Source of the DNA: Candidatus Zipacnadia bacterium
GTDB taxonomy: Bacteria > Armatimonadota > Zipacnadia > Zipacnadales > UBA5352
Direction: 5' to 3'
NCBI GenBank assembly: GCA_029820045.1
Contig: JALGVE010000027.1
Span: 1-53,905, forward strand
DNA: 53,905 nucleotides
Shown here: piece by piece, positions 5,226 through 33,480 of the stretch
How positions within the stretch are numbered: the first letter of the stretch is position 1
How the letters are laid out: each line of letters opens with the position of its first letter
Notes under the pieces: generated by a model
Database searches by the model: none
What the model was told of the DNA's origin: nothing
Seen by the model: the letters and a program-made list of their open reading frames with translations, nothing else
Translations under genes and position numbers: made by a program

Positions 5226-5406
5226 CGCACACACGCTGCGTGACTGGCCTCACTCTTGCGCAAGCAGGCACGAGCACGTAAGCCCGACCGACTAATGCGC
5301 GCTTCTCTCACAGAGTACTCCTCCTGCTGCAGGTAGGGATACCGGTCAGCTTTACTTCACTGTTCTTCTTCGCCGGCGAAGGCCCTGTTCCTCCCGCGCG
5401 GACGGA

Positions 5407-6596: not shown

Positions 6597-7541
6597 TCAG
6601 GCCGAGATGGGGAGACCCACGGTGAAGGTCGTGGTCAGCGGGTTGCTGGTGATGTCGAGGCGGCCGCCCAGGTCCTTCGTCAGTGCCACGCACAGTGGCA
6701 AGCCAACGGCATTCGGCGCTGACGCTCCCTCTTCGGCCACGCTCGCAGGGGCCTGCTCGAAGACCGCGGCGATGTCCGTATCCGACATCTGCGGGCCGTG
6801 GTCAGCAATGTTCAACAACAGAAACTCACCGCTGGGTTCGGCCCTGATCTGTATCGCGTCGCCCTCAGAGCTGCGAATGATACTGCTCAAGGCTAGGTGA
6901 TACACAACCTGCTTAAAGCGGCGCTCATCAGCCTCAACCGAGGGTAGACTGTCGGGGACCTCCACCTCCAGGCTTACCTTGGCCGCCCGTGCCTGCCCCA
7001 CCAGCAGAAGCTGAACGCGCTCCACTAGCTCTCGCGGGGCGATGGGCTCAGGATCGGAGGGCAATACGTAGCTGCGCGCACGGCCGACATCCAGGATATC
7101 GGTGATAATGCGCAGGATGCGCTGACCAGCCTCGTGGGCCTCCCTTGCAGCGTCTACTTGCTGTTCCGTAAGCTCGCCCAGGACGCCATCCCTCAGCATC
7201 TCGGAGTAGCCGAGCGTAACGTTCAGGGGGGTGCGCAACTCATGGCTGATGTTGCTCATGAGGCGTTGCTGAACACCCGGGAACTCCTGCCCATCCTGGC
7301 CGAACTCGCGGCGTGGCCGCCGAGTCGGCCTCCCGTGAGCCGCCACCACCAGCAGAACCAGCGCCGTCACCGCGAGACCGATCACCGGAAAGCCGGCGAG
7401 CGCCGCCGGGGCGATGTGGAGTACCTGAGCGGCCACCACCAACAGCACAATGAGAAGCAGTAGGACAGCAGCAGCGTACGTCAGTAGCGAGCCGCCGCCC
7501 GTAGTTCGCCTGGATGGCTGTCTCAAGCCCGAAGCGCTCAC
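6597..7541 (-). CDS. Membrane-anchored sensor histidine kinase
   Basis: Two N-terminal TM segments; H-box NISHELRTPLNVTLGYSEML; HATPase_c region (NIADHGPQMSDTDIAAVFEQ, NAVGLPLCVALTKDLGGRLDI). Confidence 0.9.
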   Translation of the reverse strand: MSASGLRQPSRRTTGGGSLLTYAAAVLLLLIVLLVVAAQVLHIAPAALAGFPVIGLAVTALVLLVVAAHGRPTRRPRREFGQDGQEFPGVQQRLMSNISHELRTPLNVTLGYSEMLRDGVLGELTEQQVDAAREAHEAGQRILRIITDILDVGRARSYVLPSDPEPIAPRELVERVQLLLVGQARAAKVSLEVEVPDSLPSVEADERRFKQVVYHLALSSIIRSSEGDAIQIRAEPSGEFLLLNIADHGPQMSDTDIAAVFEQAPASVAEEGASAPNAVGLPLCVALTKDLGGRLDITSNPLTTTFTVGLPISA

Positions 7542-7643
7542 AATGCGGACTTCCCTCCCCCATCATGATACCCCGTTGTGTGGGTTTTGTCACCACTCTT
7601 GACTCTTGCGGCGCGACAACAACGGACTCGTCAAAGCCTAAGC

Positions 7644-7830
7644 CCGAGGGCTCGCGCGAACTCAGCAGCCAGCGTCAGGGCCGGGCCGTCAGGCCCGGCC
7701 CTGGCCGTGGCGCCAGCAAAGCCGCCCCGTAGGGGCGGCTGGCACGCATATGCGTGCCGCAAGCGAAGCTTGCTTGCGGGCGCCACGGCGCGAGCGCGCA
7801 GCGCTCGCACGCTGGCTGCGCGGGCCTCGG
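7644..7830. other. Multi-branched nested palindromic element (possible structured RNA or DNA element)
   Basis: Closing stem CAGCCAGCGT 7666-7675 / ACGCTGGCTG 7809-7818; arms 7677-7687/7692-7702 (11 bp), 7704-7714/7779-7789 (11 bp), 7720-7728/7732-7740 (9 bp), palindrome GGCACGCATATGCGTGCC 7741-7758, 7759-7764/7768-7773, 7790-7797/7801-7808; outer CCGAGG 7644-7649 / CCTCGG 7825-7830. Confidence 0.85.
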
Positions 7831-8757
7831 TCAGACTCCTCGCTGGCGGCCCCGGCTGACCAGGCCCCTGGCCCAGCCCAAGGCCCGCCGGATGGCGCCG
7901 CCGGCCCGCAGCAGGGCCCGAACGCCGTGGTACTGCCAGGAGGGAAGGGCGCTGCGGTAGTGCTTGGCGTAGAACCGCAGGAAGCTGCGGTGGGACTCGG
8001 CGATCATCGCTTGCTGGACCTGCGAGGTGGAGGCCCCACCGAAGTGCGTCATGGTAGCCGCGGGGGTGAACCAGATCTCCCAACCTGCTTCCGACAGCCG
8101 CTTACACAAGTCCACGTCGTTGAAGAAGATCGGGAAGTCTTCGTCCATCAGCCCGATCTCATCCAAGGCGCGCTGGCGCAGCAGCAGCGCTGAGGCCATG
8201 GGCTGCTCGACCGTGCGCTCCTCGTCGTAGCCCCACCAGGTCATGCGGTACTTGCCGAACCGCTGGCTGTGCGGGAAGAGCCTGCTCAGGCCCAGCGCCT
8301 CGTAAAGGACGGTGTCCGGCGTGGGGAAGGCGCGGCAGCTTGCCTGGACCTTACCGTCAGGGAACAGGAGTCGCGGGGCGACGGCGCCGGCCTGCGGGCG
8401 CCGCTGCATCAGTGTGACAAGGCTGTCGAGCGACCCCCGGTGCACGATGATGTCCGGGTTGAGCAGGAGCTTAAGGGGCGCGACAGCGCGTTCCAGCGCC
8501 TGGTTATTTGCGGCCGCGTAGCCGAGGTTCTCCGCGTTCTCGATGAGGGTTACCTGAGGGTGACGCTCGCGGATCATTGCGGCGGTGCCGTCCGCAGAGG
8601 CGTTGTCAACGACGATAACCTCGCGGCTGACGGCGTCCGGCGCCTCGGCGATGCTGCGCAGGCAGTCGTCGAGCATCTCCCGCGTGTTCCACGTGACGAT
8701 GCAGATTGAGAGCGCAGGTCGGGCATTCTTGCCCGACTCCGGTGGGCGTGCGCTCAC
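7831..8757 (-). CDS. Glycosyltransferase family 2 (rhamnosyltransferase-like)
   Basis: SICIVTWNTREMLDDCLRSI...VIVVDNASADGTAAMI...ENLGYAAANNQAL...LLLNPDIIV. Confidence 0.9.
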   Translation of the reverse strand: MSARPPESGKNARPALSICIVTWNTREMLDDCLRSIAEAPDAVSREVIVVDNASADGTAAMIRERHPQVTLIENAENLGYAAANNQALERAVAPLKLLLNPDIIVHRGSLDSLVTLMQRRPQAGAVAPRLLFPDGKVQASCRAFPTPDTVLYEALGLSRLFPHSQRFGKYRMTWWGYDEERTVEQPMASALLLRQRALDEIGLMDEDFPIFFNDVDLCKRLSEAGWEIWFTPAATMTHFGGASTSQVQQAMIAESHRSFLRFYAKHYRSALPSWQYHGVRALLRAGGAIRRALGWARGLVSRGRQRGV

Positions 8758-21748: not shown

Positions 21749-21800
21749 CGAGCCGGGAGCCGTTGGAGGGGCCGGGCTTCAGCCCGGCCCGCGAGACGCA

Positions 21801-22012
21801 ATGTGAGCGCCGTACGGAGGGCGGGGCTTCAGCCCCGCCAGGCAGAGACGGCTCACAACGGCAACGCCCGGCAGGACTGAAGTCCTGCCCTCCGTATGCT
21901 ATCGCTTTGTTAGCAGACCTGCGCCCTGACGGCTGCCTCGGTACCCGCCCGCTCAGACCCTGGCAATACCCAGCCTTACTACTCACAAGCCGACTTACTC
22001 TAAAACCGATGC
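21801..22012. repeat. Composite intergenic element, copy 1
   Basis: Left end atgtgagcgccgtacggagggcggggcttcagccccgc and right end gaagtcctgccctccgtatgctatcgctttgttagcagacc ... agccttactactcacaagccgacttactctaaaaccgatgc match 33265-33480. Confidence 0.9.
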
Positions 22013-32274: not shown

Positions 32275-32455
32275 GAGGGGGCCCGACATTCTTGTCGGGC
32301 ACTCCGTCGGCGACAAGAATCTCGCCGCCCCTAGTTCACCCTCACGCGGCCGCATCGGAGCGCGAGGCCCGGCGTTCCTATCGCGCACTGCCACGAGGGG
32401 GCCCGACATTCTTGTCGGGCACTCCGTCGGCGACAAGAATCTCGCCGCCCCTAGT
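32275..32455. repeat. Duplicated inverted-repeat element, two copies exactly 120 bp apart
   Basis: gggggcccgacattcttgtcgggcactccgtcggcgacaagaatctcgccgcccctagt occurs twice (around 32276 and 32396); each copy contains gcccgaca-ttct-tgtcgggc and ATTCTTGTCG...CGACAAGAAT. Confidence 0.95.
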
Positions 32456-32516
32456 CCAGCCTCGCACGCCCCCCCATGCCAGGCGGGACGGCGCCCTCCT
32501 TTGGAAGCGTTATACC

Positions 32517-33170: not shown

Positions 33171-33264
33171 GGCGGCTTCTCCGTGGCGATTGCGCTCTTG
33201 CTCGTGCTAGGGAGCATGAGTGTAGCACAACGGTTCGGCGATTGCAATTCCAGACGCCGGCGCG

Positions 33265-33480
33265 ATGTGAACGCCGTACGGAGGGCGGGGCTTCAGCCCC
33301 GCTGGCCGTAAGACGGCAGGGCTATCCCCCGTCGTCCCGCCTCGGCGGGACTATGGGGGACGACCCATAGCTCGCCGTAAAACGGCGAGCGACGGGTCGA
33401 AGTCCTGCCCTCCGTACGCTATCGCTTTGTTAGCAGACCAGCCTTACTACTCACAAGCCGACTTACTCTAAGACCGATGC
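33265..33480. repeat. Composite intergenic element, copy 2
   Basis: Same ends as 21801-22012; different core hairpins GTCCCGCC-TC-GGCGGGAC (33334-33351) and GCTCGCCGT-AAA-ACGGCGAGC (33370-33390). Confidence 0.9.

Follow-up and report, generated by a model that had tools for sequence, protein, structure and literature searches.

What is the multi-branched palindrome that lies at positions 7644 to 7830 of this DNA, and does anything like it occur elsewhere? The window, that is, the whole stretch of 53,905 nucleotides that was analysed, is contig C130 of a 2.6 Mb MAG that is 59.6% complete. The palindrome (Table 1) is located between the gene of a family 2 glycosyltransferase (GT2) and that of a sensor histidine kinase. 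The glycosyltransferase has its named relatives in Candidatus Zipacnadia (Armatimonadota), the group of the MAG. The core of the palindrome (7665-7819, 155 nt) consists of seven helices, all of them perfect; its 68 pairs are all Watson-Crick, G-T pairs and mismatches are absent, and 88% of its bases are paired. A preliminary description of this locus had held that nearly all of 7666-7818 can be paired, which is correct. The same description had rightly placed an 11-bp inner stem around three hairpins, a perfect 18-bp palindrome among these, an 8-bp last hairpin, and an outer stem that touches the GT2 stop codon. Two of its helices turn out to be longer: the closing stem is where it was said to be and has 11 bp, among them the 10 bp first noted, while hairpin A, also present, has 12 bp instead of 11.

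Table 1. Positions in the window of the parts of the element, the neighbouring genes and the two forms of a second palindromic family (Z1).
Feature	Position	Strand	Basis or remark
Family 2 glycosyltransferase (GT2), stop codon 7831-7833	7831..8757	-	Pfam PF00535
Sensor histidine kinase, next gene in the same direction	6597..7541	-	Pfam HisKA, HATPase_c
Outermost short stem, 5' arm CCGAGG	7644..7649	.	pairs with 7825-7830; fold on both strands
Outer arm, 5' side GCAGCCAGCGT	7665..7675	+	related to family arm GGGCAGCGTG
Hairpin A, 12 bp, loop GTCA	7676..7703 (arms 7676-7687/7692-7703)	+	fold
Inner arm B, 5' side GCCGTGGCGCC	7704..7714	+	11-bp stem with 7779-7789
Hairpin C, 9 bp, triloop GTA	7720..7740	+	fold
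Hairpin D, perfect 18-bp palindrome GGCACGCATATGCGTGCC, 9 bp per arm	7741..7758	+	fold
Hairpin E, 6 bp, triloop GAA	7759..7773	+	fold
Inner arm B', 3' side GGCGCCACGGC	7779..7789	+	pairs with 7704-7714
Hairpin F, 8 bp, triloop GCA	7790..7808	+	fold
Outer arm, 3' side ACGCTGGCTGC	7809..7819	+	closes 11-bp stem with 7665-7675
Outermost short stem, 3' arm CCTCGG	7825..7830	.	adjoins GT2 stop codon
Z1 family, long form, nested palindrome	33275..33418 (with surroundings 33261-33442)	-	38 bits with R1, weak
Z1 family, short form: outer arms and left hairpin of the long form, simple spacer	21797..21922	+	

Folding of both strands, which the preliminary description had proposed as a check, gives the same fold on each. 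As RNA, the core reaches -159.9 (z -10.5) on one strand and -155.3 (z -10.3) on the other, and as ssDNA it reaches -103.1 (z -11.9). These z-scores compare the element with dinucleotide shuffles (n=200) and place it 10 to 12 SD below them; none of the 200 shuffles is as stable, either in RNA (on either strand) or in ssDNA. In a structure scan of 410 kb of its own genome (16% of the total), with 258 kb from two relatives added to the sample, the element ranks first for structure among the 10,155 GC-corrected scan windows of its own genome.

Is this structure a one-off? It is not: the element is one copy of a dispersed repeat family, which we call M, and its structure is real. Its own genome (G000) contains at least six copies, five with two levels and one with a single level, all apparently intergenic, and two further, simpler copies of one level are found in G005, a genome of a related genus (g6). 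The second most structured place in the 410 kb, on contig C96, has its branches in the same order as the element, and the copies on C75 and C68 have DNA similarities of 86% and 76% to that on C96. From these three only, with the element at 7665-7819 left out, a covariance model (R1) was built. The model finds a further copy, on C78, and scores the element at 53 bits (E 4e-6 in 440 kb, R1 E-values being rough), that is, the element fits a seven-helix model made from other members. After the members, the R1 search returns an element of the Z1 family at 38 bits, with all others below 25 bits. The order of parts in all five two-level copies is arm, hairpin A, inner arm B, C, D, E, B', hairpin F and arm.

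The element is closest to other members in hairpin F together with the outer arm (GCGAGCGCGCAGCGCTCGCACGCTGGC versus CGGGCGCGGAGCGCCCGCACGCTGCC), and also in hairpin E, of which an alternative register (CCGCAAGC/GCTTGCGG, 7757-7779) resembles CCGCCCGC/GCGGGCGG of other members. The 8 bp of the outer arm are nearly invariant in the family, yet they deviate in the element and in C78. Hairpin D has 23 bp per arm in the four other two-level members against 9 bp in the element, and its sequence is wholly unlike between C96/C75, C68 and C78. The outermost short stem of the element (CCGAGG/CCTCGG) is not conserved in the other members.

One-level cloverleaves with GGGCAGCG/CGCTGCCC arms are found at two places in G005 (C72 and C26) and at one in G000 (C75:1190-1312). 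A G005 copy of 118 nt, found with a second covariance model, has the arm GGGCAGCGC around three hairpins only; that model was built with the element and took in reverse-strand matches, so it gives no independent scores for members. A search for the arm pattern gave two more one-level copies, one of them in the element's own genome. Since one-level copies exist, the two-level form can be described as holding a second cloverleaf in place of the central hairpin. When the arm pattern was searched in 121 genomes, a hairpin directly after the arm was seen only at the three known loci among the matches listed, judged on their first 80 nt. Most of the arm-pattern matches are due to chance, since a reversed-pattern control also matches; its matches are common elsewhere and zero in G000 and G005.

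A strict detector of perfect branched palindromes reports only members of the family and Z1, and none in shuffles. BLAST searches with the element, run on the genome that carries it and on 100 relatives, phages and plasmids, give only short GC-rich chance matches, and only structure scanning and the covariance model revealed the family. Its absence from relatives is provisional, because model searches of whole genomes assign scores to none but the best candidates in each. Homologues with the same arm order exist, covariation is present (see below) and shuffled sequences fold less well; none of the outcomes that, according to the preliminary description, were to reduce the structure to a chance of composition was observed.

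We turn to the sites at which the copies are found. They are unrelated, and so are their flanks, except for 47 bp common to C96 and C68, from which it follows that some copies may stem from segment duplication. This stretch (CCCTCCCCGCTCACCTTCC..., L107 11142-11188 and L164 2473-2519, 91% alike) occurs beside two elements only, and it may belong either to a longer element or to a duplicated segment. Neither a target-site duplication nor a clean empty site was found for family M. At the locus of the element, the order of the glycosyltransferase and histidine kinase genes is kept in eight relatives within the family, in which the 53-179 nt between the two genes contain no comparable structure; the element is absent from the orthologous site. 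A separate observation concerns the histidine kinase itself, which has 314 aa here, whereas the corresponding open frames of the family run to 431-489 aa, and whose first ~85 residues are without counterpart in relatives, so its N-terminal part was replaced or lost.

The location in a 3' UTR, as first suggested, is a real tendency that is shared by seven of the eight family members, whose distances to the stop codon upstream of them are 0, 1, 11, 14, 35, 43 and 73 nt (the copy on C78 has no clear upstream stop codon). In each of the six tandem cases, the distance to the next start (24-235 nt) exceeds that to the upstream stop. Placement after the stop is as known for REPs, and a function at the 3' end would give likewise. 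The main rival to mobility is such a role at the glycosyltransferase gene, where the element would act in cis in the mRNA, terminating transcription, blocking RNases or stabilising the upstream message, which has been suggested of REPs too. Besides these positions, the promoter-like site that the downstream kinase has of its own (7593-7565, - strand) and the very stable RNA fold on both strands would suit this role. We consider it rather unlikely, however, since no U-tract follows the structure and a terminator scan of 7450-7950 finds no terminator at the element, since G-U pairs and one-sided changes, both expected of a selected RNA, are missing, and since the orthologous genes in eight relatives are without the element. 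The same positions would result if insertions near promoters were not tolerated.

The changes in the stems carry the argument further. In the alignment of C96, C75 and C68, 20 of the 78 pairs are altered on both sides, no pair is altered on just one, and 98.3% of the cells are paired, as against 37-46% with the partners slid. Across the five two-level members no G-T is found in 380 pairs, although G-T was permitted. The helices of the five, when aligned by hand, give 363 cells with one mismatch and no G-T, and 66 double-changed columns, a generous count because helices of unequal length were aligned from the stem base. RNA structures under selection usually pass through G-U intermediates. The lack of G-T together with strictly two-sided changes points to pairing at the DNA level, with the arms probably copied from each other and rewritten jointly. 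Perfect pairing in spite of a nearly complete change of the stems speaks for a mobile DNA repeat of the hairpin type, and not for a chance fold.

Template switching homogenises the arms of inverted repeats (PMC8604942), and the palindromes might have grown in place, without being mobile, if such switching at replication forks perfected and extended inverted repeats. The 20 two-sided changes versus 0 one-sided ones are what arm homogenisation gives, and the perfect stems, with loops of mostly 3-4 nt, agree with it as well. What growth in place leaves unexplained is the seven-helix order with a related arm and hairpin F at five unrelated sites, and the arms common to one-level copies in another genus. 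As the whole explanation it is unlikely, and template switching may well act together with mobility.

The conserved secondary structure and the strong covariation could also be taken as signs of a family of structured non-coding RNA genes, one of the roles first proposed. The window contains no Rfam match above the gathering threshold, those below it being at chance level; no single-stranded position is conserved, the loops vary freely, and the two strands are equally stable. Together with the lack of any G-U pair and the concerted two-sided changes, these results leave a transcribed ncRNA unsupported, and we regard this reading as very unlikely.

Loops of the form C(GNA)G and C(GNNA)G are known to be stable in ssDNA. 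It is extremely improbable that the element is a chromosomal remnant of a plasmid, phage or integron, derived from one of their ssDNA sites for replication or recombination (sso, attC-like), for although the shape resembles folded ssDNA sites and the + strand loops of the element have this form, phage records give no match and plasmid records chance matches only, attC-type GTTRRRY/RYYYAAC boxes are missing at the ends (7640-7835, both strands), and the copies are dispersed among unrelated genes. As a trait of family M these special loops were rejected: they are true of the element's + strand and not of the other members.

The explanation that we favour, and to which we give about an even chance, is that the element is a dispersed, non-autonomous, palindromic, REPIN-like mobile DNA that would move as a folded single strand and has been nested once. 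Of the roles first proposed, a mobile element or an accretion of REP units is the one best supported, on account of the dispersed copies at unrelated sites, the one- and two-level forms, and the REPIN/RAYT systems in the genome. The basic unit would be a cloverleaf of ~120 nt, with an arm of 8-11 bp and conserved sequence (GGGCAGCG ... CGCTGCCC) around three hairpins, of which the central one is long; where this long hairpin would stand, the five two-level copies have another cloverleaf, which possesses an arm and three hairpins itself. Spread would occur as folded ssDNA recognised by its shape and arm, in the way of REPINs with RAYT (HUH/Y1) transposases. The two sides of each stem may be kept matched by template switching between the arms, by selection for the fold, or by both, and the element would be tolerated just downstream of stop codons. 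Counting against this explanation is the low copy number, six found in a MAG that is 59.6% complete.

Palindromic repeats abound in the genome, and four RAYT-type Y1 transposase genes are found in it above the Pfam cut-off, with 40% of the genome missing from the MAG. Each of those on C50, C168 and C27 lies between palindromic or inverted repeats, and that on C85 (L160:5-595) is flanked by the branched palindromic GGAGGGGCCG family. In this incomplete genome the RAYT flanks inspected carry other repeat families, not M, and no transposase is linked to family M. The GGAGGGGCCG(C/T)C(C/T)GAGGGC ... ACGGCCCCTCC arms are seen around fully covarying hairpins at L160 (C85) 1-1250, L091 15842-16120 and L098 10842-11120. 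The RAYT gene on C50 (L162 1465-3075) lies amid REPIN-like palindromes (TGGGAGCGCGGGCGTCCCGCCCGCA and its inverse), whose matches in the genome are confined to that contig. The genome also contains GTAGGTCGGGC doublets. REPIN-like doublets GTAGGTCGGGCnnnnGCCCGAC ... GTCGGGCnnnnGCCCGACCTAC, with inner bases that vary jointly in both units, are found at L098 8885-8985, L092 11270-11375 and L096 4921, and in the window at 5405 and 52044. Other repeats of the window are a 194-bp unit present three times in tandem at the contig end (1-582; 97% and 70% identity) and two 77-bp copies, 120 bp apart, with CCCGACATTCTTGTCGGG palindromes (32275-32471); L096, L102 and L106 contain repeats of this motif as well.

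For the idea of nesting, the Z1 family offers a filled and empty pair. Z1 has 64 matches in the genome, many of them at contig ends, and its two forms have in common the arms GCCGTACGGAGGGC/GCCCTCCGTACG and the flanks CGATGTGAAC / CTTTGTTAGC. The inner part is 120 nt, with a multi-hairpin spacer, in the long form versus 64 nt, with a simple spacer, in the short one.

How does family M compare with known systems? With REPIN/RAYT systems (PMC3116915, PMC2817692, PMC8266576) it shares short extragenic palindromic DNA whose inverted arms form one large hairpin on folding, compensatory changes, and the presence in the genome of RAYT genes bordered by REPIN-like repeats. As in REPINs, the copies are dispersed and extragenic (five two-level and one one-level in G000), and in every member the outer arm and hairpin A have their mirror image in hairpin F and the outer arm. 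Unlike in REPINs, the M arm encloses three hairpins, the unit is nested in itself, and the paired hairpins of one element (A/F and C/E) differ in sequence and are not the copies of each other that a REPIN's two REPs usually are. Instead of an almost invariant 16-mer in high copy, M has six copies and a nearly invariant 8-bp arm, and the constant GTAG/GGAG/CGTC tetranucleotide tag 5' of the hairpin was not found in the eight members. In outline M would work like a REPIN; on the grounds of copy number, tag and invariant 16-mer, it is not filed as one.

GTAG/CGTC REP dimers inserted in larger palindromes are described in A. variabilis, T. roseum and H. neapolitanus (PMC3733652), and in the parts of that work that bear on M palindromes likewise lie within palindromes, and dimers have structured spacers. 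There, however, a tagged REP dimer is combined with one target palindrome, and those parts describe no recursive cloverleaf in which the outer arms are conserved and the stems change freely. The hairpin repeats of organelles, in the portions concerning sponge RHE (PMC2800124) and Lobosphaera LIMP (PMC4524435), are similarly dispersed and intergenic in compact genomes; they are hairpins of mitochondrial DNA, with no nested branching in these portions. The attC sites of integrons are recognised as folded ssDNA, but they have imperfect stems, whereas those of M are perfect and come without R boxes or a cassette array. A Rho-independent terminator is also a GC-rich hairpin right after a stop codon; the element differs in its seven helices, its lack of a U-tract, and its being palindromic on both strands. 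A search of open-access PMC papers gave no description of nested cloverleaf repeats, and M would represent a new branched, nested design of REPIN-like non-autonomous element.

A bolder version can be put forward tentatively. In it the family would be selfish DNA of a new kind, a cloverleaf similar to itself whose identity lies in its branching shape and short arm and not in its stem sequence, which can insert itself into its own central hairpin and whose stems are rewritten simultaneously on both sides; if true, insertion into its own central hairpin would build the cloverleaf within a cloverleaf. That BLAST with the element gave only noise suggests that sequence-based repeat searches may miss such families. 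Family M provides a natural case in which the shape of a DNA is strictly kept while its sequence is nearly free. With it one can test whether branched shape lets HUH-type or other enzymes mobilise a DNA, and at what pace a palindrome is rewritten on both arms by template switching.
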